Assembly: GCF_021172045.1 (NCBI RefSeq)
Contig: NZ_CP087164.1
Location: 5,580,001-5,644,000, forward strand
Direction of reading: 5' to 3'
Origin: Capillimicrobium parvum
Lineage (GTDB): Bacteria; Actinomycetota; Thermoleophilia; Solirubrobacterales; Solirubrobacteraceae
DNA: 64,000 bases
Shown here: positions 2,268 through 50,480 of the stretch, piece by piece
Layout: each line of letters starts with the position of its first letter
How positions within the stretch are numbered: position 1 is the first letter of the stretch
Position numbers and translations under genes: made by a program
The notes under the pieces: model-generated
What the model saw: the letters and a program-made list of their open reading frames with translations, nothing else
What the model was told of the DNA's origin: nothing
Databases searched by the model: none

Positions 2268-2312
2268 CGGTCCATTCGGAGGTACGCGCCGCACGGACGG
2301 CCGCAATACCTT
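2268..2312 (+). promoter_or_regulatory. Palindromic operator 1 and -10 box upstream of XRE-cupin gene
   Basis: CGGTCCATTCGGAGGT at 2268-2283 is the most degenerate member of the window-wide palindrome family (consensus ACCTCCGAWCGGAGGT). After 23 nt comes TACCTT at 2307-2312, a good -10. The predicted transcription start falls within a few bases of the GTG at 2325, so the mRNA is nearly leaderless. The position implies that the regulator controls its own gene; this is inference. Confidence 0.6.
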
Positions 2313-4877: not shown

Positions 4878-4921
4878 AGCGTACGGACGGCTCGAGGGGT
4901 GCAACACGTCCGATCGGAGGT
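4878..4921 (-). promoter_or_regulatory. Palindromic operator 2 and -10 box for the FAD oxidoreductase gene
   Basis: On the minus strand ACCTCCGATCGGACGT (4921-4906) is followed after 22 nt by TACGCT (4883-4878). Transcription would start near 4871, giving a leader of about 60 nt before the TTG at 4812. The spacing matches the other operators. The site lies between the PPOX gene, which ends at 4936, and this gene, so the oxidoreductase has its own regulated promoter even though it follows the ABC operon on the same strand. Confidence 0.75.
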
Positions 4922-4935
4922 ACTGGCGGTGGATC

Positions 4936-5412
4936 CTACGAGCCCTCGAGCTCAGGGTCGCCCGGGTACATGTGCACCACCTTCTCCGGCGTCACGCGCA
5001 GGACCACGCGAGGCTGTTGTGGATCCATCCAGGGGTACTCGTCGGCGCCGATGTACTTCCGGGCCATCTCGTTGATGTGCTCGTCGGCGCCGTCGCGCGT
5101 GGGCGCGGAGACGCGGCCCCGGATCTCCACGAACTCGTAGGGGTTCGCGAGGTTGACCACGTTGCAGGTGATCCGCCCGGTGCGCTCGGCGTTGCGCACC
5201 CAGGCCCGCCCACGGACCGAGTTGAGCACGACCTCGCGGCCGTCGGTGTCCACCCATACCGGGAGGGCGTGGATGCTGCCGTCGGGGGCCGTGGTGCAGA
5301 CGGTGCAGACGTTGCGATCGCGCAGCAGCCGGCAGACCTGCTCGTCGAGTCCGGTCAGCCGGCGGATCAGCAGCCCTCCGACCGTACTGGGGGACGGCGC
5401 GGAATCGGTCAT
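4936..5412 (-). CDS. PPOX/split-barrel flavin or F420-binding protein
   Basis: A 158-residue pyridoxamine-5'-phosphate-oxidase-like split barrel protein. NVCTVCTTAPDGSIHALPVWV is the first barrel strand pair, followed by VVLNSVRGRAWVRNAERTGRITCNVVN and YEFVEIRGRVS. Small actinobacterial members bind FMN, F420 or haem; some reduce unsaturated substrates with F420H2. The ATG overlaps the upstream ABC gene's stop (ATGA at 5409-5412), so it is translationally coupled to the transporter and probably processes the imported compound or supplies reduced flavin. Flavin versus F420 use cannot be decided from sequence. Confidence 0.8.
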   Translation of the reverse strand: MTDSAPSPSTVGGLLIRRLTGLDEQVCRLLRDRNVCTVCTTAPDGSIHALPVWVDTDGREVVLNSVRGRAWVRNAERTGRITCNVVNLANPYEFVEIRGRVSAPTRDGADEHINEMARKYIGADEYPWMDPQQPRVVLRVTPEKVVHMYPGDPELEGS

Positions 5413-8078
5413 CCAGCGGCGGGCGAGGAGCGGCGGGACGGCATGACCTTGCGCACGATCGTGCGGCCGTACGTCCTGGCCGCCTTGGCGGCGCCCGTCG
5501 TGTAGATGAGCAGGGCGATCAGCGTCAGCGCACCCGTCAGGATGAAGCTCGCACCGTCGCCGAGACCGAGGGTCGTCGGCATCGTCTGAGCCATGGCGAG
5601 CAGGATCGCGCCGAGCATGCAGCCGATGAACGTGCCCCGGCCGCCCAGCAGGCTCGCGCCGCCGAGGATCGGCGCCGCGATGGCCAGCAGCGTGTACTGA
5701 TTGCCGACGGTCGAGTCGCCGACGCCCACCTGGCCCGCGAGAAGGATGCCGGCAAACGCCGCGAGGATGCTGCAGACCACGTAGGAGAGCGAGCGCAGAC
5801 GGGGAGCGTTGACGCCGAGCCGGTAGGCGAACTGCGGGTTCAGACCCGTCGCGCGGAGCCTCAGCCCCTGCCCCGTGGAACGCAGCAGCCGGTCGGCGAT
5901 GAGGAACAGGACCGCCAGGACGACCATGGGCCACGGGATGAAGCTGATCTTGCTGGTCAGTCCGTTGGTCAGATCGAGGCTGATGGATCCGGCCGCCGTC
6001 GGGCGCAGCAGCAACCCGATGCCCTGCAGGATGCCCAACGTCGCGATCGTGGCGATGACGGGGGAGATCCTCACGCGTTCGACGAGCGTCGCGTTGACCG
6101 AGCCGACGACGATGCCGACCCCGATCGCGACGAGGATCGATACCACCAGGCCGCCGATCAGAGAGGTGGTGGTGACGATGAACGACAGCAGCGCGACCGT
6201 GACGCCCATGAGCGCGCCGACGGACACGTCGATGCCACCGACGAACATGACCGCGAACTCCGCGGCGGCGACCGCCGCGAGAGGCAGGGCGAACAGCAGG
6301 ACGTTGTACAGGCTCGCCGACGTGAGGAACGTGTCGTTGCGGCTCTGCGTGTACGCGCCGAGCGCGACGAGCATCAGGACGAGCAGACCGAGCCGCATGG
6401 CCTCGGGGTGGTTGCGCACGAGCTGACGCAGCGCGCCGGGCGGCTTGGCCGCCTCGGGCACGACGGTCTCCGCAGCCGCCGTCCTGACCGCCGCCGCGTC
6501 CTCGCCGCTGCGATCGGACTCGACCGCGAACGCCTCGACGATGCGCTCCTCCGTCGCCGTGGCCCCAGGCAGCTCGGCGACGATCACGCCGCGCGATGCG
6601 ACGAGGATCCGATCGCAGAGCCCGGCCAGCTCGGAGGCGTCGGACGACACCAGGACGACCGCGAGCCCGCGCTTCGCGCTGTCGCGCAGCATGTGGTAGA
6701 TGTCGATGCGCGAGCGGACGTCGACGCCCTGGGTCGGCTCGTCGATGAGCAGGACGTCCGGCTCGGTCGCCAGCACGCGTCCGAGCGCGACCTTCTGCTG
6801 GTTGCCGCCCGACAGCGACGTGATCGGGTCCTCGGCTGAGCCGAGGCGGATGCCGAAGGTGTCGACGCTCTCGCGGACCTGGCCCTTCTCCTTCGCCCAG
6901 CTGAGGACCCCCGCGGTGGAGAGCTTGCCCAGGACGCCGACCACCAGGTTCTCCCGGATGGCCAGCGACTGGAACAGCGACTCCCGGCGACGGTCGCTGG
7001 AGAGCAGCGCCACGCCGGCGCCGACGCTCTGCCCGAAGCTCGTGACCGGCGATCCCTTGACGTCCAGCCTGCCGTCGGGCACGTCGATCGCGGCCAGGCC
7101 GCGCAGCAGCTCGAGCTGGCCGTTGTCGTCCGCGCCGGCGATGCCGACGATCTCCCCGGCGCGGATGGCGAGATCGACCGGGCCGTATCCGATGCCCCGA
7201 AGCTCGCTGGCGGCGAGAAGCGGCTCGCCGATCTCGTCGGGACGGGCCCGGTCGGGGAACTCGACGTCCACGCTCGTGCCGGCCATGAGCTCGACGAGCC
7301 GGTTGGTGTCGACCTCGTCCCGTCCATACGTTCCCTGCCAGATCCCGTCGCGCAGGACCGAGATGCGATCCGCGACGCGGAACACCTCGGAGAGGCGATG
7401 TGTGACGAACACGACGCCACAGCCGTCCGCGGCCGCTCTGCTCATCAGATCGAGCGCGATGGCGACCCCCGCGGCGTCCAGCGCGGATGTCGCCTCGTCG
7501 AGCAGCAGCACGGCGGGTTTCGCCATCAGCGCCCGAGCGATCTCCAGCAACTGGCGGTCACCCGGCGACAGCGTGTCGGCCAACGCGGTCACCGGGATCC
7601 GGTCGAGGCCGAAGTCACGCACCCGTTCGCTCGCCCACTGGTCGACCCTGCGATAGGCCGGACGCTGGCTCACGGGCGTCCCCAGATACAGGTTCTGCGC
7701 CACGGTGAGGTCGGTGAGCACCGACCCGTCCTGGAAGACCGTCAACGCGCCGTGGCGCTGCGACTCCCACGGCGTGTGCCTGGTGCAGGACGAACCATCG
7801 ATCTCGACCGTGCCCGTGTCGGGTCTGACGGTGCCGCTGACGATCCCGACCAAGGTCGACTTGCCCGATCCGTTCTCGCCCACCAGCCCGTGAACCTCAC
7901 CGCGGCGCAGCTCGAAGTCGCCCTGCTGCAGCGCCCTGACCACGCCGTAGCTCTTGGAGATCCCCTTGGCCACGAGCGGCAGCCGCGCGTCGGTGGACGG
8001 TCCAGAGGCAACCGCATCCGGGCGGCCGGTCGGGACGGTCTTGCTCACCAGGTTCTCGCTCTCTTGCGACACTTTCAT
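5409..8078 (-). CDS. Ribose-type ABC importer: ATPase fused to permease
   Basis: An 889-residue fusion of an RbsA-like double ATPase with an RbsC-like permease. The first ATPase has Walker A GENGSGKST, signature LSPGDRQ and Walker B VLLLDEATSALD. The second has the usual degenerate Walker A (GADDNGQ), signature LSGGNQQ and Walker B VLLIDEPTQGVD. From about residue 555 follow the hydrophobic helices of a BPD_transp_2 permease, including VGGIDVSVGALMG. With the separate permease at 9460 the complex would have two different membrane subunits. I prefer ATG 8078; a TTG at 8135 with an AGGGG element is an alternative. Cargo unknown; the family carries sugars but also autoinducers and cyclic alcohols. 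Confidence 0.9.
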   Translation of the reverse strand: MKVSQESENLVSKTVPTGRPDAVASGPSTDARLPLVAKGISKSYGVVRALQQGDFELRRGEVHGLVGENGSGKSTLVGIVSGTVRPDTGTVEIDGSSCTRHTPWESQRHGALTVFQDGSVLTDLTVAQNLYLGTPVSQRPAYRRVDQWASERVRDFGLDRIPVTALADTLSPGDRQLLEIARALMAKPAVLLLDEATSALDAAGVAIALDLMSRAAADGCGVVFVTHRLSEVFRVADRISVLRDGIWQGTYGRDEVDTNRLVELMAGTSVDVEFPDRARPDEIGEPLLAASELRGIGYGPVDLAIRAGEIVGIAGADDNGQLELLRGLAAIDVPDGRLDVKGSPVTSFGQSVGAGVALLSSDRRRESLFQSLAIRENLVVGVLGKLSTAGVLSWAKEKGQVRESVDTFGIRLGSAEDPITSLSGGNQQKVALGRVLATEPDVLLIDEPTQGVDVRSRIDIYHMLRDSAKRGLAVVLVSSDASELAGLCDRILVASRGVIVAELPGATATEERIVEAFAVESDRSGEDAAAVRTAAAETVVPEAAKPPGALRQLVRNHPEAMRLGLLVLMLVALGAYTQSRNDTFLTSASLYNVLLFALPLAAVAAAEFAVMFVGGIDVSVGALMGVTVALLSFIVTTTSLIGGLVVSILVAIGVGIVVGSVNATLVERVRISPVIATIATLGILQGIGLLLRPTAAGSISLDLTNGLTSKISFIPWPMVVLAVLFLIADRLLRSTGQGLRLRATGLNPQFAYRLGVNAPRLRSLSYVVCSILAAFAGILLAGQVGVGDSTVGNQYTLLAIAAPILGGASLLGGRGTFIGCMLGAILLAMAQTMPTTLGLGDGASFILTGALTLIALLIYTTGAAKAARTYGRTIVRKVMPSRRSSPAAG

Positions 8079-8156
8079 CGGTATGGCGTTGGGCTTGACG
8101 AGCTGCTTGGTGAGGCGCGCCGGGCGCCCCACCAAGCCCCTGCGGCTCAGAGGCGC

Positions 8157-9459: not shown

Positions 9460-10521
9460 TTAGGTGGTGGTTGCCTGAGCGCCGTCAGGACTTCCGGGCC
9501 GGAGCGAGCGGTACCCCTGCCGGATCCGTGGCAGGTTCTGAATGACGAAGACCAGCGAGAGGCCGAGGGCGAGGACGGCTCCCTGAACGATCAGGCGGAC
9601 CCCGGCCGAGTAGCCCTTGACGCGCAGGTCGTAGTCGAGCACGGTGATGAAGACCGCGCCCAGGAGCGTCGCCACGGGGCTCACCCGCCCACCGGTGAGC
9701 ACCGCGCCGCCGAGCACCACGGCGACCACGCTGGAGAGCAGATAGGGATCGCCGAGTGTCAGGTCCGGAGTGCCGACCTGACCCGCGGCCAGCACGCCGC
9801 CGATGCCGTAGGCGAGAGCGGCGAGCACATAGGCGAAGACCCGGTAGCTGCGCGCCCGTACCCCGGCAAGCGTCGCGGCGCGGGCCGCGGCGCTGCTCGC
9901 CACGAGACGGCGCCCGGGAACGATGCGATGCAGGAAGAAGGTGGACGCGAGCGCGAAGAGGATCGCGAAGATGAACAGGTAGCTGACGCCGCCCAGGTCG
10001 GCGCCCGCCGCGTCGGAGAGGTTGCTCGGCACGTTCGTGAAGGTGAGGACGTCGCCGCGATAGAGGCGCATCGCCCCGAACACGAGCTGGCCCACGGCGA
10101 GGGTCACGACGAGGGCGTTGAGGCGCAGGATCTCGACCAGCACACCGTTGAGCAGTCCGATGACCACGCACACCACGGCGCAGGTGAGGAGCGCCTTCGG
10201 CAGGTTGTCGCTCTGCTGGGCGGACTCCTTGAGGACGATCGAGCCCATCAGGGTCATCACGGCGGGGACGCTGAGGTCGATGCCGCCGGTGCTGACCACG
10301 AACGCCTGACCCGTGGCGACGATGATCATGATCCCGATCAGGGGGGTCAGGGTCGACAGCGACGCGAGCTTGAAGAAGTTGCTCGTGACGAAGAACTGGG
10401 AGACCGCCAGCAGCACGATGACCGCGCCGGTGATCACGGTGAGTGGCGTGACCCGCAGCCGCGCGCGGCCGGCGCTGCGCTCGCTGGCGGTCTTGGGCGT
10501 CGCGTCAGACCCGTCGCTCAC
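9460..10521 (-). CDS. ABC importer permease (RbsC-like)
   Basis: A 353-residue BPD_transp_2 membrane subunit with about 8-10 hydrophobic helices. STGGIDLSVPAVMTLMG is the conserved loop of ribose-type permeases, and LAAGQVGTPDLTLGDPYLLSSVVAVVLGGAVLTGG is the EAA-like C-terminal region. It is first in its operon, upstream of the binding lipoprotein and the fused ATPase-permease. The predicted promoter with operator 3 lies just upstream. Confidence 0.9.
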   Translation of the reverse strand: MSDGSDATPKTASERSAGRARLRVTPLTVITGAVIVLLAVSQFFVTSNFFKLASLSTLTPLIGIMIIVATGQAFVVSTGGIDLSVPAVMTLMGSIVLKESAQQSDNLPKALLTCAVVCVVIGLLNGVLVEILRLNALVVTLAVGQLVFGAMRLYRGDVLTFTNVPSNLSDAAGADLGGVSYLFIFAILFALASTFFLHRIVPGRRLVASSAAARAATLAGVRARSYRVFAYVLAALAYGIGGVLAAGQVGTPDLTLGDPYLLSSVVAVVLGGAVLTGGRVSPVATLLGAVFITVLDYDLRVKGYSAGVRLIVQGAVLALGLSLVFVIQNLPRIRQGYRSLRPGSPDGAQATTT

Positions 10522-10545
10522 AGTCTCCTCCTCATCCCTTCCGGG

Positions 10546-10590
10546 ACGGTAGATCCGCGCCGATGGCGGTGACCACCTCCGAACGGAGGT
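10546..10590 (-). promoter_or_regulatory. Palindromic operator 3 and -10 box for the ABC transporter operon
   Basis: ACCTCCGAACGGAGGT (10575-10590, plus strand) is one of the two most perfect copies: 7-bp arms around an AA/TT centre. Reading leftwards, 23 nt separate it from TACCGT (10551-10546). The permease start at 10521 follows, so transcripts would cover 10521 to at least 4936 (permease, binding protein, fused ATPase-permease, PPOX protein). Confidence 0.8.
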
Positions 10591-10636
10591 AGTGCGCGGG
10601 GACGTGTGGCGGCAGCGACGGGGCCGAGCGCAGCGG

Positions 10637-11557
10637 TTATGCGTGCTCGGGCGCGGGCAGGGGCACGCGGTAGGCCCTGGCGGCGGTCTCGACGAAGAGC
10701 GCCGAGCGCTCCGACGGACTGAGATCCGCCGTCATCTCGTCGTATGACCTCCACAACGTTGCATAGGTCGTGGCCATGCGCTCCACCGGCCAGTTGCTCG
10801 AGAACAGCGATCGGTCGGGTCCGAAGATGTCGATCGCCTCGCGGACGATCGGCCGCATCGCCGCGACCTCCCACGGCCCGCCCCCCGAGATGAACGACAT
10901 CCCGGAGACCTTGATCACCGCGTTGGGGACGCGCTCGGCGAAGCGGCGCAGACCGCTGCGCCACTCCCGCAGTCCGTCATCGATCTCCGGCGTCGGCACG
11001 CCGGTGTGCCCGAGGATCACGGTCAGCTCGGGAAGACGCGAGAACACATCGGCTGCGAGCTCGAGCTGATGACTGAAGACGAGGAGGTCGAACGACAGCC
11101 CCCGGTCGCTCAGCCGCCGCAGGCCGGCCTCCCAGGCGGGGTCCTCGAGCAGGTTGAACGTCAGGATGTCCGCCCGGGTCGAGTCGGGGTCGTACCACGC
11201 CTCCTGGCGGACGCCGCGGAAGAACTCGTGCTCCTGATGGCGGTCGAGCACCTCGTCGAGGCGGGGGTCGCGCAGATCGGCATACCCGACGCAGACCGTC
11301 GGCACCGGATCCTCGGGGGACGCGGCCGCCAGACCTGCGAGCCATGCGGTCTCCTCGACGGGGTCTATCGCGTGATCGACCTCCGCCTGGACATGCACGG
11401 TCGCGAGCACGGCGACATCGGCGGCGTCGCGGCGAAAGTCGGACACCAGGTAGTCCTGCCGCAGGGTCTCGCCGAGGTGCGGGTCCTCCATCCACGGATA
11501 GCGCGTCCGCCCGACGTCCCACAGATGCAGGTGCGCGTCGACAACGGGCAAGCTCAT
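10637..11557 (-). CDS. Amidohydrolase 2-family TIM-barrel hydrolase
   Basis: A 306-residue metal-dependent hydrolase. VVDAHLHLWD at the N-terminus supplies the HxH metal ligands, VILGHTGVP a later His, and SLFSSNWPVE replaces the classic GSDWP Asp with Asn, as seen in lactonase-like members of amidohydrolase family 2. Members hydrolyse lactones such as 2-pyrone dicarboxylate or fuconolactone, or decarboxylate aromatics. It starts 18 nt after the luciferase-like gene and is probably cotranscribed from operator 4; a lactone made by a Baeyer-Villiger-like monooxygenase followed by this hydrolase is an attractive but unproven pairing. Confidence 0.85.
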   Translation of the reverse strand: MSLPVVDAHLHLWDVGRTRYPWMEDPHLGETLRQDYLVSDFRRDAADVAVLATVHVQAEVDHAIDPVEETAWLAGLAAASPEDPVPTVCVGYADLRDPRLDEVLDRHQEHEFFRGVRQEAWYDPDSTRADILTFNLLEDPAWEAGLRRLSDRGLSFDLLVFSHQLELAADVFSRLPELTVILGHTGVPTPEIDDGLREWRSGLRRFAERVPNAVIKVSGMSFISGGGPWEVAAMRPIVREAIDIFGPDRSLFSSNWPVERMATTYATLWRSYDEMTADLSPSERSALFVETAARAYRVPLPAPEHA

Positions 11558-11574
11558 GACCGGGCCCGCGGTCG

Positions 11575-12876
11575 TCAGCGGGCCGCGACCGCGGCGGCCG
11601 GCTCGTCGGCGTCAGGACCGGTCTCCCCGAACTCCGAGATGATGTGCTCGGCGAACCACTCGAGCTGTTGCTTGGCGTCGTCGAGGGACATGACGCCCTG
11701 GTCGAACAGCAGGGTCAGCCAGTCGAGCTGACCGTCGGCGTGCACACGGTGAAGCGCCTCGACATCGCGCTTGACCTCGTCGGGCGTACCGGCGATGGCG
11801 TACTTCGACCTGGTGAAGCGATCCATGGTCCACTCGGACTTCGGGATCAGCGACTTGCCCTTCGGCCATCTCTCCTCGTCGCCGGGCATCCGGAAGGCGT
11901 CCCAGAACCCGAACCCGCCGAAATAGAGGTCGAAGACGAAGTAGCCGCCGTCCTCGACGAGTTGCAGCGCGCGCTGACGATCGGGATGGATGGTGATGGA
12001 ACGCATCGCCCCGACGCTCTCCCCGAGCCGGAGCTCGCGCCCGTGCAGGGCCGCGTGGTCGCGGTAGGTCTCGCACAGGGCCCGGAAGTTGTCCGGATAC
12101 GAGGTGAGGATCATCGGGATGATGTCGCGCTCGGCCGTGTAGGTCATCGTCGAGCCGCTCATGCCGAAGGCCTGGAACAGCGGGGGATGGGGCCGCTGAT
12201 ATGGCGCCGGGCACACCGACACGCCACGCAGGTAGCCGTCCTCGCCGATCTCGCCCGGCGCCCCGTACTTCGCGGTCAGCTCGCTCACCGGCCACTGCTT
12301 CGGGGAGATGCCCTTCTCGTACGGGCTCGGGACCTCGTAGAACCGGCCCTTGTAGCGCAGCAGATCCTCGGTCCACGCCTTGATGATGATGTCGAGGTAC
12401 TCCTCGTGAACCGCGCGATTGTGCTTGTCGACGTCGCTGCCGTCCATGGTGGCCGCCTCGACGCCGATCTGCTGACCGAGGATGTTCACCCACCGCGACT
12501 GGTAGCCGCGGGCGAAGCTGGCGAGGAACCTGCCCTTCGTCAGGTGGTCCAGGTACGCCATCTGCTCGGCGACGCGGATCGGGTCGTTGCCCGGAAGCAC
12601 GATGGAGTTCGGCATGAACTTGATGCGCTTGGTGCGGACCGCCAGGTCGGCGTAGAGCAGGAGCGGCGCCACCGATACCTCGAGCCCCTCCGAGTGGAAA
12701 TGGTGCTCGGTGGTCCCCACCGAATCGAAGCCCAGCTCGTCCGCGAGGATCGCGAGCTCGCGCACCTCGTGGAGCATCATCTGCCAGCGGTCGCTGTTGC
12801 GCGCGATGGGACGGAGCCGCTCACGGTCCGCCAGCGACCCCGGAATCGTCGGGAGCATGAACAGGTTGAACTTCAC
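11575..12876 (-). CDS. Luciferase-like (LLM) flavin monooxygenase
   Basis: A 433-residue bacterial luciferase-like TIM barrel. MKFNLFMLPTIPG opens the first strand, followed by DELGFDSVGTTEHHFHSEG, the luciferase signature, and RIKFMPNSIVLPGNDPIRVAEQMAYLDHLTKGRF. The protein is longer than the common 330-380 residues because of inserts around 165-230. Such enzymes use FMNH2 or F420 to insert oxygen into, or oxidise, organic substrates. The minus-strand promoter with operator 4 lies upstream, inside the 3' end of the neighbouring ligase gene. Confidence 0.9.
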   Translation of the reverse strand: MKFNLFMLPTIPGSLADRERLRPIARNSDRWQMMLHEVRELAILADELGFDSVGTTEHHFHSEGLEVSVAPLLLYADLAVRTKRIKFMPNSIVLPGNDPIRVAEQMAYLDHLTKGRFLASFARGYQSRWVNILGQQIGVEAATMDGSDVDKHNRAVHEEYLDIIIKAWTEDLLRYKGRFYEVPSPYEKGISPKQWPVSELTAKYGAPGEIGEDGYLRGVSVCPAPYQRPHPPLFQAFGMSGSTMTYTAERDIIPMILTSYPDNFRALCETYRDHAALHGRELRLGESVGAMRSITIHPDRQRALQLVEDGGYFVFDLYFGGFGFWDAFRMPGDEERWPKGKSLIPKSEWTMDRFTRSKYAIAGTPDEVKRDVEALHRVHADGQLDWLTLLFDQGVMSLDDAKQQLEWFAEHIISEFGETGPDADEPAAAVAAR

Positions 12877-12921
12877 GGGATGGCCACCCCTCTTCGAGAA
12901 CGTGCGGCACCGTCCGGCGCG

Positions 12922-12965
12922 ACGCTAGACAGGGAGCGATGGTCCGACTACTTCCGATCGGACGG
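12922..12965 (-). promoter_or_regulatory. Palindromic operator 4 and -10 box inside the ligase 3' end
   Basis: CCGTCCGATCGGAAGT (minus strand, 12965-12950) keeps the TCCGATCGGA core but has weaker outer arms. Exactly 22 nt downstream is TAGCGT (12927-12922). The operator overlaps the last codons and stop of the acyl-CoA ligase (stop 12948-12950). The promoter would drive the luciferase-like gene at 12876 and the amidohydrolase. Confidence 0.65.
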
Positions 12966-14609
12966 ATCTGCGTGCGGCGCCCGCCCACGGGCGCGCAGCT
13001 CGCGGCGCAGGACCTTCCCGCTGGCCGTCTTGGGGATGACGTTCACGACGTGCACCTCGCTCGGGCACTTGTAGACGGCGAGCTGCTCGCGCGAGAAGGC
13101 GATGAGCTCCGCCGGTGTCGCCGCGCCCGGCTCGCGCAGCGTGACGTAGGCGAGCACCGTCTCCCCGCGATAGTCGTCGGGGGCTCCGACGACGCACGCC
13201 TCGGCAACGCCCGGATGCCGATGGAGCACGTCCTCGACCTCGCGGGGCCAGACCTTGAACCCGGATGCGTTGATGATGTCCTTCAGGCGATCGATGACGA
13301 AGAACCATCCATCGTCGTCGCGTCTGCCGAGGTCGCCGGAGTGAAGCCACCCGTCGCGCACCGTCTGCCGTGAGGCTGCGGCGTCACGCCAATAGCGGCG
13401 GACGACCTGGGAACCGCGCATGAGGATCTCACCGACCTCGCCGGCCGGCAGCTCCGAGCCGTCCTCGGGGTCGGCGATCTTCGCGTCGGTCCCGCAGACC
13501 GGGACGCCGACGGCCAGCGCACCCGACACGGGGTCGACCGGCGCTCGCCGTCCCAGGGGCGTCATGTGGGTGGGACCGCTGCTCTCCGTCATCCCGTACG
13601 TGTTGTGGATGTAGACGCCGGTGGCCTTCTCGTAGCGCTCGACGACCCCTGGATGGACGGGTGCTCCACCGGTGGCCACCTTCACCAGCGACGAGATGTC
13701 CCTCGTGGCGAAGGTGGCCTCGCTCATCATGGCCAGGAACGCCGTCGTCGGCCCGATGATCCAGGTGCCTCGCCAGCGTTCGATCAGCCGCAGCATCTCG
13801 GCCGCCTCGAACCGGTAGAAGAGCACCATGGGGATCCCCGCCGCCCGTGACGCGCAGAGGTGTCCCGCGATGCCGGTGATGTGAAACAGGGGCGCCATCG
13901 CGACGGTCACGTCGCCCGGTCCGAGCTGCCACCACACACGGTACGTCTCCGCGGTCTGGACAAGCGCGGCGTGCGTGATCTCGGCCGCCTTCGGCGGCCC
14001 GGTCGTACCCGAGGTGTACGCGAGAAGGGCGAGAGCATCGGGCTCCGGATCCGCCGGTTCCAAGCGCGTACCGCGATGGCGCTCGACGAGCGAGGCGAAC
14101 GTCACCGCGCCGGGGCATTCCAGGCGCCGGTGCGTCGCCAGCATCGCCGGGACGCTCTCCAGGAAGTCGAGCTCGCACACCGTGATGACCTGCTCGATCG
14201 GCGTCTCGCCGACGACGTCCCCGACGACGGCGTACAACGACTCGAGGCAGACGACCGCGCGTGCCTCCGAGTCGCCGAAGTAGTGCAGCAGCTCCCCGCG
14301 CTTGGCCATGACGTTGATGCAGACGGGCACCGCGCCGGCCAGCCAGATCGCGTGCAGCGTCATCGCGAACTGCGGGATGTTCTGCATCATCAGCGCGACC
14401 CGGTCGCCGGCAGCGATCCCGTAGTCGTCTCTCAGCGCCGCGGCCAGCGCCACGGCACATTCGCGTGCCGCCGCCACGCTGATCGTGGCATCGAAGTAGT
14501 GCAGGGCGGCATCGGCGCCGTCCCGGCCGCCCGACCGCTCGTACAGCTCGAGCGCGTTGCGGTAGGACGGCACGATCTCCGCCGGCACGTGGCGGTCGTA
14601 CGCGGCCAC
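12948..14609 (-). CDS. Acyl-CoA ligase (AMP-forming)
   Basis: A 553-residue member of the ANL superfamily. LLAYTSGTTGPPKAAEITH is the phosphate-binding loop, YGMTESSGPTHM the A5 motif, WLHSGDLGRRDDDGWFFVIDRLKDIINASGFKVWP the hinge region, and PKTASGKVLRREL contains the C-terminal catalytic Lys. It adenylates a carboxylic acid and forms its CoA thioester. GTG 14609, 20 nt after the upstream SDR stop, is the first plausible start; the frame stays open further upstream but only within the SDR gene. It is probably cotranscribed with that SDR from operator 5. Acid specificity is not readable. Confidence 0.9.
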   Translation of the reverse strand: MAAYDRHVPAEIVPSYRNALELYERSGGRDGADAALHYFDATISVAAARECAVALAAALRDDYGIAAGDRVALMMQNIPQFAMTLHAIWLAGAVPVCINVMAKRGELLHYFGDSEARAVVCLESLYAVVGDVVGETPIEQVITVCELDFLESVPAMLATHRRLECPGAVTFASLVERHRGTRLEPADPEPDALALLAYTSGTTGPPKAAEITHAALVQTAETYRVWWQLGPGDVTVAMAPLFHITGIAGHLCASRAAGIPMVLFYRFEAAEMLRLIERWRGTWIIGPTTAFLAMMSEATFATRDISSLVKVATGGAPVHPGVVERYEKATGVYIHNTYGMTESSGPTHMTPLGRRAPVDPVSGALAVGVPVCGTDAKIADPEDGSELPAGEVGEILMRGSQVVRRYWRDAAASRQTVRDGWLHSGDLGRRDDDGWFFVIDRLKDIINASGFKVWPREVEDVLHRHPGVAEACVVGAPDDYRGETVLAYVTLREPGAATPAELIAFSREQLAVYKCPSEVHVVNVIPKTASGKVLRRELRARGRAPHADPSDRK

Positions 14610-14628
14610 CCACGGTCGGGGATGCCGG

Positions 14629-15414
14629 CTAATGGAAGACCATCCCGCCATCGACGTTGATCGCCTGCCCGGTGATGTACGACGCCGCGTCGGATGCGAG
14701 GAACACGGCGAGCCCAGCGACGTCATCCGGCGTGGAGAGCCGTCCCGCGAGGATCCCTGCGCCGAACTCCTCCAGCGCCTGCCCCGGGCGCTCGGTCTCG
14801 CCGAGCTCCATGAACTCCGCGTCGAGCTGCTGCCAGAGCTCGGTGGTGACCACCCCCGGGCACATCGCGTTGACCGTGATCCGGTTGCCGGCCAGCGACC
14901 GCGCCCCCGCCTGGGTGAGCGCCACGACCGCGAACTTGCTCGCACAGTAGGCCGCGAAGAGCGGGTATCCCTCCTTGCCGGCGATGGACGCGGTGTTGAT
15001 GATCCGCCCGCCGTCACCCTGGCTGATCATCTGCCGCGCGGCCTCCTGCATGCCGAGCAGGACGCCGAGCCCGTTGACCCGCATGATCCGCTCCCACTCG
15101 TCCTCGGTGACGTCGAGGAAGCCCTTGGTCTGCGAGATGCCGGCGTTGTTGAACATCACGTCCAGGCGTCCGAACGCGTCGATCGTACGCGCGATCGCGT
15201 CGCGCACGCTCGCGCGGTCGCTGACGTCGCAGCCGACGCCCAGCGCCGGCTTCCCGGGGGCGGAGATCGCCGCAGCGACCGCTTCGGCCGAGGCGCCGTC
15301 GATGTCGGCGATCGCCACGGCCGACCCAGCTTCGGCGAGGCGCTCGGCGATGCGGCGCCCGATGCCTCGACCCGCCCCCGTGACGACACACACACGACCA
15401 TCGAGGTCAGGCAT
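14629..15414 (-). CDS. Short-chain dehydrogenase/reductase (SDR 1)
   Basis: A 261-residue classical SDR. TGAGRGIG (nucleotide-binding), FNNAGIS, a catalytic Ser in INTASIAG and YCASK (Tyr-x3-Lys) are all present; the C-terminus ends in ASYITGQAINVDGGM. It oxidises or reduces a secondary alcohol or ketone with NAD(P). It is first in an operon with the acyl-CoA ligase, as in beta-oxidation-like ring or side-chain degradation. Confidence 0.9.
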   Translation of the reverse strand: MPDLDGRVCVVTGAGRGIGRRIAERLAEAGSAVAIADIDGASAEAVAAAISAPGKPALGVGCDVSDRASVRDAIARTIDAFGRLDVMFNNAGISQTKGFLDVTEDEWERIMRVNGLGVLLGMQEAARQMISQGDGGRIINTASIAGKEGYPLFAAYCASKFAVVALTQAGARSLAGNRITVNAMCPGVVTTELWQQLDAEFMELGETERPGQALEEFGAGILAGRLSTPDDVAGLAVFLASDAASYITGQAINVDGGMVFH

Positions 15415-15454
15415 GCAGATCCTCCGCTTCTGAGAAGACGAATCGTTCGCACCG

Positions 15455-15498
15455 AGCCAACAGGTCCGCCCCGGTGTCGACCACGTCCGAACGGAGGG
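15455..15498 (-). promoter_or_regulatory. Palindromic operator 5 and -10 box for the SDR 1-ligase operon
   Basis: TCCGAACGGAGGG lies at 15486-15498. Read leftwards, 22 nt separate the 16-mer (15498-15483) from TTGGCT (15460-15455), a weaker -10 (TTNNNT). SDR 1 starts at 15414. It forms a pair with operator 6, the core starts being 36 bp apart. Confidence 0.65.
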
Positions 15499-15518
15499 TG
15501 TCGTCCGACCGTCCACGA

Positions 15519-15562
15519 AGGTCCGAACGGAGGGTGACCGTCCCGCAACGGGCGCGTAGGTT
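15519..15562 (+). promoter_or_regulatory. Palindromic operator 6 and -10 box for SDR 2
   Basis: TCCGAACGGAGGG at 15522-15534 is a near-identical second copy 36 bp from operator 5. Rightwards, 22 nt later, is TAGGTT (15557-15562). Each of the two divergent SDR promoters therefore appears to have its own copy in the correct register. Confidence 0.7.
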
Positions 15563-15630
15563 CGACCGATGCCGCCCGGTCCTGCGCCGGGCCGGCGTTC
15601 GTCGTCGACGTGGGCAGCGAAGGAGGGCAC

Positions 15631-16395
15631 ATGGCGGATCTGATCGGCAAGGTGGCGGTGGTCACCGGCGGCGCGAGGGGCATCGGCGCCGCCTCGGCAG
15701 AGATCCTGGCGCAGCGCGGTGCGACCGTCGTCATCGCAGACACCCGGGAGCAGCTCGGCCGGCAGACGGCCGAGCGGATCACCGCGTCGGGGCCCGGAAG
15801 CGCCGAGTTCCGGACGCTGGACGTGACCGTCGAGGGGGAGGTCACGGCGGTGGCCGAGGAGACCGCAGCCGCCCATGGTGGCATCGACTTCCTCATGAAC
15901 AACGCCGGCATCGTCGAGAGCTCCCCGACCTTCGAGCTCGACGAGCAGACGTGGTCGGGCACGATCGCGGTCAACCTCACCGGCACCTTCCTGTGCGCCC
16001 GCGAGTTCGGCCGCCGGATCGCCGGCAGCGGCGGAGGCGCGATCGTCAACGTCTCCTCGATCGCGGGGCTCAAGGCCGTCCGGCCGGAGCTGCACGTCGC
16101 CTATGACGCGTCCAAGGCGGGGGTGGCGCAGCTGACGCGATCCCTCGCCGCGGAGTGGGCGTCGCTCGGCGTCCGCGTCAACGCCGTCGCGCCCGGCTAC
16201 ACGCGCACGGAGATCCTCGACGAGGTCGGGCGCGACGATCCGGCGATCGTCGAGGACTGGCTGGGTCAGATCCCCATGCGGCGCTTCATCGAACCATCCG
16301 AGATCGCGCGCGTGGTGGCGTTCCTGTTCTCCGACGACGCCAGCGCGATCACGGGCCACGTGTTGGGCGCCGACGCCGGGTACATGGCGGTGTGA
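15631..16395 (+). CDS. Short-chain dehydrogenase/reductase (SDR 2)
   Basis: A 254-residue classical SDR: TGGARGIG, MNNAGIV, VSSIAG and YDASK, ending ITGHVLGADAGYMAV. ATG 15631 is preceded by AAGGAGGG at 15620-15627, a strong ribosome binding site. Divergent from SDR 1 and probably coregulated through the operator pair. A likely role is alcohol/ketone interconversion in the same catabolic pathway. Confidence 0.9.
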   Translation: MADLIGKVAVVTGGARGIGAASAEILAQRGATVVIADTREQLGRQTAERITASGPGSAEFRTLDVTVEGEVTAVAEETAAAHGGIDFLMNNAGIVESSPTFELDEQTWSGTIAVNLTGTFLCAREFGRRIAGSGGGAIVNVSSIAGLKAVRPELHVAYDASKAGVAQLTRSLAAEWASLGVRVNAVAPGYTRTEILDEVGRDDPAIVEDWLGQIPMRRFIEPSEIARVVAFLFSDDASAITGHVLGADAGYMAV

Positions 16396-17409: not shown

Positions 17410-17453
17410 ACCTAAGCGCGACCCGCGGGGCCCGGCTACCTCCGATCGGAGGG
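17410..17453 (-). promoter_or_regulatory. Palindromic operator 7 and -10 box for hydrolase copy 1
   Basis: ACCTCCGATCGGAGGG lies at 17438-17453. Leftwards, 22 nt separate it from TTAGGT (17415-17410), upstream of the hydrolase start at 17377. In the rightward direction, towards SDR 3 at 17533, the register position reads GAACAC, which is not a convincing -10, so control of SDR 3 by this site is uncertain. Confidence 0.7.
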
Positions 17454-25670: not shown

Positions 25671-25715
25671 ACGATACGAGCGCCGGGCCCATCGGGAAAC
25701 CGTCCGATCGGAGGT
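25671..25715 (-). promoter_or_regulatory. Palindromic operator 8 and -10 box for the molybdenum hydroxylase operon
   Basis: TCCGATCGGAGGT is at 25703-25715. Leftwards, 23 nt separate the 16-mer from TATCGT (25676-25671), upstream of TTG 25639. The operon runs to 18394. Otherwise the gap 25640-25872 holds no gene that I can see. Confidence 0.75.
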
Positions 25716-25872: not shown

Positions 25873-26568
25873 CTAGAGGATGCGCAGTTCGCTGAGCTTG
25901 AAGACCGCCTCCACCCGGTTGCGGGCACCGAGCTTGCGCAGCGCGCTCTGCAGATACGACTTGACCGTCGTCGGAGCGAGGAAGATGGCTCCGGCGATCT
26001 CGGCGTTGCTCTCGCCACGCGCCGCCCGGCGCAGGATCTCGTGCTCACGCGGCGTGAGCGGCGTGCCGTTCACCTTCGCCGCGGCGTGTTGAAGCATCTG
26101 GTCGCTGTCGGGATCGACGATGCTCTGCCCGCCGGCGACCAGCGCGATCGACTCGAGAAGCCGGGTGGGCGTCGCGTCCTTTCCGATGACCCCGTGCACG
26201 CCGAGCTCGGCGGCCTCCTCGCGCAGCGACGGCGACAGCTGAGCGGCGAAGATCAGCACGCGGGTTCCGGGCGACACGGCGGCCAGACGGCGGACGACGC
26301 ACTCGAGCAGCATGTCGCGCAGCCAGGGATCCAGCAGAACGACGTTGTGCCGGCGCTCACGCGCAGCGTCGATGGCCTCCTGGCCGGAACCGACGGCCTC
26401 GACGGCACGGATGCCCTTCGCTCCCTGCAGGAACAGGCGCACCCCCTGTTGCACCACCGGCTGCTCGTCGACAACAAGGAGCTGGATGCTGCGGGTGAGG
26501 ATGCACCGCGGCGACTCGCTGCGCACTGCGGGCGTCGTAAGGGCTGGGGACTCCACAAGCTCCAGCAA
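25873..26568 (-). CDS. LuxR/NarL-type response regulator
   Basis: A 231-residue response regulator. The receiver domain has an acidic pair in LLVVDEQPVV, the phosphoacceptor Asp in VVLLDPWL and a Lys in GVIGKDA. Residues about 165-230 are a LuxR HTH (LTPREHEILRRAARGESNAEIAGAIFLAPTTVKSYLQSALRKLGARNR). Starts are ambiguous: TTG 26568 or GTG 26526, the latter leaving little before the receiver domain. No histidine kinase is nearby, so it is an orphan here. The targets are not evident. Confidence 0.85.
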   Translation of the reverse strand: MLELVESPALTTPAVRSESPRCILTRSIQLLVVDEQPVVQQGVRLFLQGAKGIRAVEAVGSGQEAIDAARERRHNVVLLDPWLRDMLLECVVRRLAAVSPGTRVLIFAAQLSPSLREEAAELGVHGVIGKDATPTRLLESIALVAGGQSIVDPDSDQMLQHAAAKVNGTPLTPREHEILRRAARGESNAEIAGAIFLAPTTVKSYLQSALRKLGARNRVEAVFKLSELRIL

Positions 26569-44340: not shown

Positions 44341-44412
44341 ACGGTAGATCCCGGGTGATCGGGCGGGAACCTCCGAACGGAGGTACCTCTTCACGGTTCT
44401 CGCGCGTAGCGT
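44341..44412. promoter_or_regulatory. Palindromic operator 9 serving two divergent promoters
   Basis: ACCTCCGAACGGAGGT (44369-44384) has a -10 at the register position on both sides: TACCGT leftwards (44346-44341, spacing 22) and TAGCGT rightwards (44407-44412, spacing 22). The former would drive the mycofactocin-type SDR, the latter the CMD-CMD-M24 genes. It is the only site symmetric in both directions. Confidence 0.75.
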
Positions 44413-48464: not shown

Positions 48465-48508
48465 ACAATACGGTCGCCCCAGGCTCGGGAGACCATCCGA
48501 TCGGAGGT
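48465..48508 (-). promoter_or_regulatory. Palindromic operator 10 and -10 box for the ThDP gene
   Basis: TCCGATCGGAGGT is at 48496-48508. Leftwards, 22 nt separate the 16-mer from TATTGT (48470-48465), the best -10 in the set. Rightwards no TANNNT occurs at the register position, so the XRE-cupin gene at 48705 is probably not under this site. The 300-nt gap 48405-48704 shows nothing else I recognise apart from the MGSH mini-ORF. Confidence 0.75.
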
Positions 48509-50437: not shown

Positions 50438-50480
50438 ACGATAGCTCCGGGCGGCCGGACGGCTACCTCCGTTCGGAGGG
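50438..50480 (-). promoter_or_regulatory. Palindromic operator 11 and -10 box for the alcohol dehydrogenase
   Basis: ACCTCCGTTCGGAGGG lies at 50465-50480. Leftwards, 21 nt separate it from TATCGT (50443-50438). The ATG at 50431 is 6 nt further, so transcription should start at or next to the initiation codon. Confidence 0.75.

Follow-up and report, generated by a model that had tools for sequence, protein, structure and literature searches.

A palindrome at the end of the acyl-CoA ligase gene g12

The palindrome that lies inside the 3' end of the acyl-CoA ligase gene g12 raises the question of whether the two genes downstream, g11 and g10, have a promoter of their own, and what kind of regulator would work it. 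An earlier note on the 64-kb stretch of DNA analysed here (the window; features in Table 1) had placed an operator over the last codons and the stop of the ligase gene, with TAGCGT in register as the -10 element. Direct reading of the minus strand bore out both points. The 16-bp sequence CCGTCCGATCGGAAGT (12965-12950) contains an inner perfect 10-bp palindrome, TCCGATCGGA, and spans the final five g12 codons (CCG TCC GAT CGG AAG), reaching one base into the TAG stop (12950-12948); TAGCGT follows at 22 nt (12927-12922), within the 21-23 nt spacing of the operator family described below. The AMP-binding_C domain of g12 ends at residue 532 of 553, and the operator accordingly falls in the C-terminal tail, past the last recognised domain. 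Transcription of the g11 unit would start near 12915.

The overlap with g12 is explained by space: the g12-g11 intergenic distance is 71 nt, and operator, spacer, -10 element and leader together require about 90 nt. Downstream, g11 and g10 plausibly form a two-gene unit: 17 nt separate them, and the next operator comes only after g10, ahead of g09. A sigma-70 consensus scan of positions 10400-15700 found no promoter, as expected for promoters that have no -35 element. Two other roles were considered for the motifs and ruled out: a terminator hairpin, since only 2 nt would be left for the loop between the arms and no T run follows, and a Shine-Dalgarno role for GGAGGT, since the strong sites lie 34-97 nt ahead of the start codons and upstream of the -10.

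Table 1. Features of the window discussed in the text; offsets of -10 elements are in nucleotides from the operator
Feature	Coordinates	Strand	Basis and remarks
Weak operator (13.6) ahead of XRE-cupin gene g04	2268..2283	+	PWM; TACCTT at 23
Operator of g05	4906..4921	-	PWM; TACGCT at 22; conserved in two relatives
Operator of g09-g06	10575..10590	-	PWM; TACCGT at 23; conserved in relatives
g10, amidohydrolase	10637..11557	-	Amidohydro_2, 4.3e-37; second gene of unit
g11, luciferase-like monooxygenase	11575..12876	-	Bac_luciferase, 3.1e-33; GTG start; first gene of the putatively driven unit
-10 element TAGCGT	12922..12927	-	Read directly and register test; 22 downstream of operator 12950
g12, acyl-CoA ligase (AMP-binding)	12948..14609	-	Pfam; 3' end holds operator
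Operator CCGTCCGATCGGAAGT	12950..12965	-	7-2-7 palindrome, read directly; PWM 18.8, leave-one-out 18.6
Operator of g13-g12	15483..15498	-	PWM; no TANNNT in register (TTGGCT at 22)
Operator of g14	15519..15534	+	PWM; TAGGTT at 22
Operator of g15, probably common to divergent g16	17438..17453	-	PWM; TAGGTT at 23
Operator of g22-g17	25700..25715	-	PWM; TATCGT at 23
g23, orphan NarL/FixJ response regulator, candidate activator	25873..26568	-	Receiver PF00072 and GerE/LuxR HTH PF00196
Operator common to g37 (-) and g38-g40 (+)	44369..44384	both	PWM; -10 at 22 on each strand
Operator of g41	48493..48508	-	PWM; TATTGT at 22
Operator of g43	50465..50480	-	PWM; TATCGT at 21

An operator family with fixed spacing, confined to one gene cluster

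A position weight matrix (PWM) was built from clear sites and used to scan the window and the 20 kb upstream of it. Eleven strong palindromes (score >=15) with the consensus ACCTCCGWWCGGAGGT were found, 10 in the window and one upstream. The 12950 site is among the weaker ones (rank 10 of 11, in a range of 18.4-25.4), and it alone falls inside a coding sequence. The 11 sites were picked by palindrome alone, the -10 playing no part in the choice; on both strands of these sites, offsets 21-23 gave 11 occurrences of TANNNT and the 67 other offsets gave one. Ten of the 11 sites have TANNNT in register, the exception being 15483.

The combined pattern TCCGWWCGGA-N24-26-TANNNT matched 10 times in the 5.95-Mb genome, all 10 in the window and one of them at 12950; the remaining 5.89 Mb and the reversed control had none. 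When the palindrome was searched with at most one mismatch, 9 of the 12 places lay within about 52 kb. A looser, one-sided pattern that tolerated two mismatches showed no enrichment in the window (64 observed, 59.5 expected); significance therefore depends on the full palindrome together with the spacing. In a search of 24 genomes for CCTCCGNNCGGAGG with one mismatch, the genomes could not be distinguished from the reversed controls. At about 4.94 Mb of the same genome the operator palindrome occurs in a perfect 16-bp form (L016, 9947-9962), 75 nt ahead of a short-chain dehydrogenase gene and with no TANNNT in register.

These searches bear on whether the 12950 match arose by coincidence from coding sequence at a GC-rich gene end, with g11-g10 transcribed solely by read-through from g13-g12. 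The position of the site within a coding sequence, its modest score and the failure to find a terminator-like site between g12 and g11 would all suit such a coincidence. Against it, Markov-simulated sequence gave 0.03 strand-sites per 64 kb at or above the leave-one-out score of 12950, none of 60 simulated 64-kb windows held a site of its score with a -10 in register, the pattern was absent from the rest of the genome, and the distance from operator to g11 start codon (74 nt) falls inside the 34-97 nt range of the other strong sites. We consider a coincidence very unlikely. The proposal of an operator and promoter within the ligase 3' end is instead supported by palindrome, spacing and genomic confinement.

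Read-through is a separate matter. Since no terminator separates g12 from g11, transcripts from g13-g12 could continue into g11, and that upstream unit bears a member of the same operator family. The idea that the luciferase-amidohydrolase pair forms an independent unit thus holds in so far as the pair appears to have an initiation site of its own, and fails in so far as independence would mean separate control. The 12950 site is probably a co-regulated internal promoter, adding initiation within one regulon.

Promoter architecture

At the window sites, the operator centre lies 29-31 bp from the -10. Across 27 promoters the best match to TTGACA was 2-4 of 6 positions, and the mean match of 2.74 was slightly higher than the 2.37 of shuffled spacers. 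Such spacing has precedents among activators: one NarL 7-2-7 site placed 32 bp from the -10 is reported to be enough for activation and class II CRP to be positioned 29 bp from it (PMC9314961), and the lux box is described as centred at -42.5 (PMC3376562). With no -35 consensus and about 30 bp between operator centre and -10, these operators are more likely to serve a class II activator than a repressor. The term operator used previously is kept here for the site itself; its repressor-type sense is dropped, as a centre at about -42.5 without a -35 consensus fits an activator site.

A palindrome overlapping a core promoter is, to be sure, repressor geometry too, and a repressor outside the XRE-cupin family might bind it and block RNA polymerase at the -35 region. 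Without a -35 consensus, however, a repressor would have little promoter to act on, and besides g23 and the XRE-cupins the only other regulator found among the 41 of 54 window genes scanned was the PucR-type g30. No relative of g30 was found in the cluster loci of genomes G142, G210, G136 and G122; a G126 locus holds one (34.5%). We give such a repressor very little credence.

Related clusters in other genomes

Clusters that combine related genes with these operators were found in G142, G210 and G136 and, from another family, in G122. At four promoters other than 12950 the operators are conserved across genera while the spacer sequence varies (counting the locus described here, g05 in 3 loci, g22 in 3, g09 in 5 and g15/g16 in 2), and in 2 of its 5 loci the g09 operator precedes permeases only about 35% identical. 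TANNNT is in register at 14 of the 19 palindromes in the relatives' loci and out of register at 5, a fraction biased upward by the discovery of several of the contigs through the -10 pattern. At the level of sequence, the operator family, its fixed spacing, its confinement to the cluster and its conservation at other promoters are established. For 12950, no orthologue of the g12-g11 junction was found in 232 genomes, and the site therefore cannot be footprinted by comparison. Relatives of g11 (E <= 1e-40) occur in 7 of the 232 genomes, with at most 44% identity apart from its own copy, and a scan of named genomes gave relatives of only 23-31%, of no use for footprinting.

Several gene arrangements were recorded along the way. 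The G210 locus (L083, 538-612) has three tandem operator palindromes ahead of its g22 relative. In G142 a single 855-aa frame (L084, 13663-16230) has matches to g18, a ligase, as well as to the dehydrogenase-like g28 and may be a fusion. Positions 5409-8132 of the window encode one 907-aa protein in which two ABC ATPase stretches are fused to a BPD_transp_2 permease, with long relatives in G142, G210 and G122.

A candidate activator tracks the operators

The distribution of the operators was compared with that of the regulators encoded in the window. Close relatives of g23 (E <= 1e-34) occur in 4 of the 232 genomes: G000, G136, G142 and G210. These are exactly the four with at least three operator/-10 matches (10, 3, 4 and 3, respectively); every other genome has at most two, with a total of 15 over the 228 genomes of the order that lack a close g23 relative. 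The probability of this coincidence is 8.5e-9 if the genomes are treated as independent and shared descent of the cluster is ignored. Sampling 399 genomes across the class gave three with close relatives, none of them new. The distribution of the system is patchy: three genomes of the same genus (G001, G002 and G003) have neither close g23 relatives nor operator/-10 matches. In G122, five palindromes score at least 17.8, yet the best g23 relative is at 37% and none is close; the G122 contig begins inside a CoxL-like gene and, by comparison with G142, g23 would lie beyond that end.

The HTH of g23 is identical at 44-51 of 53 positions in the three relatives, and the receiver at 58-76 of 120. 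PDB matches of the protein include NarL, VraR and DevR. The receiver, seemingly degenerate, retains the D and K in g23 but has A at the T position. All four orthologues have A there, and their phosphoacceptor column reads D, N, D, E. No partner histidine kinase gene was found among the 41 of 54 window genes scanned. Translation of g23 probably starts at TTG 26568 and not at GTG 26526, the relatives having MLEL in common in the alignment. Taken together, g23 is probably the best candidate for the activator of the operator family.

The XRE-cupin regulators g04, g24 and g42 offer another reading, in which they would use the palindrome as operator and act as local repressors over the core promoter. 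All three lie within the window, relatives were found in all four operator-rich genomes, and palindromes stand ahead of XRE-cupin genes in G136 and G142, with a weak one ahead of g04. In addition, Pseudomonas XRE-cupins are reported to repress through palindromes in core promoters (PMC7901475). However, the operators do not track the XRE-cupins across the 232 genomes. Close XRE-cupins occur in 24 of them; of the 20 that lack a close g23, none exceeds two operator/-10 matches and 17 have no match. The XRE-cupin of G212 has a nearly identical HTH, yet that 96% complete genome has no operator/-10 match. Near XRE-cupin genes in genomes without a close g23, an operator with a -10 was found at G122 only, and G144 has one weak palindrome and no -10. 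The fixed spacing without a -35 also suits an activator better than an XRE-cupin repressor. On balance, XRE-cupins are unlikely to be the proteins that bind these operators.

Proposed mechanism and implications

We consider it likely that the promoter at 12950 depends on a class II activator, probably g23, and that it belongs to a dedicated regulon within a catabolic cluster. In the model that we infer for regulator identity, activation and transcription start, a g23 homodimer would bind the 7-2-7 palindrome centred near -42.5, adjoin the sigma factor sitting on the TANNNT -10, and substitute for the absent -35 element in recruiting RNA polymerase. At 12950 this would give the luciferase-amidohydrolase pair its own initiation inside the same regulon.

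More speculatively, g23 may be a BldM-type orphan pseudo-receiver regulator that, independently of phosphorylation, drives a patchily distributed catabolic cluster through a dozen promoters devoid of a -35, the XRE-cupins sensing metabolites and regulator and operators having spread jointly between genera and two families; we regard this wider picture as tentative. A literature search with the operator strings gave no relevant paper, as judged by the listing. One sequence observation has led to a testable regulon that comprises an operator, a spacing rule, some dozen promoters of a single cluster and a candidate activator, and the cluster could serve to study how pseudo-receiver regulators are controlled.

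Comparison with known systems

The 7-2-7 organisation recalls E. coli NarL, although the NarL heptamer differs from that of the operators here. The ogt1052 promoter has a 7-2-7 inverted repeat like the present one, and a single site 32 bp from its -10 is described as sufficing for induction (PMC9314961); E. coli NarL promoters differ in responding to nitrate. Pseudomonas XRE-cupin repressors use palindromic sites in the core promoters of metabolic genes (PMC7901475), but they are repressors with 1 to 12 sites, and the XRE-cupin distribution seen here does not follow the operators. The LuxR lux box is also an inverted repeat at -42.5 (PMC3376562), but it is a 20-bp site and serves acyl-homoserine lactone sensing. 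M. tuberculosis DevR/DosR belongs to the NarL subfamily, and its proximal site next to the transcription start is reported to overlap the -35 (PMC3029386); it differs in being phosphorylated at Asp54 and in commonly using paired cooperative boxes. BldM of Streptomyces, an orphan atypical NarL-type regulator, is reported to bind the 16-bp palindrome TCACcCgnncGgGTGA (PMC4125116). Its Group I regulon controls development and the outer bases differ (TCAC against ACCT), but a 16-bp palindrome with a CCGnnCGG core is common to both (PMC4125116).
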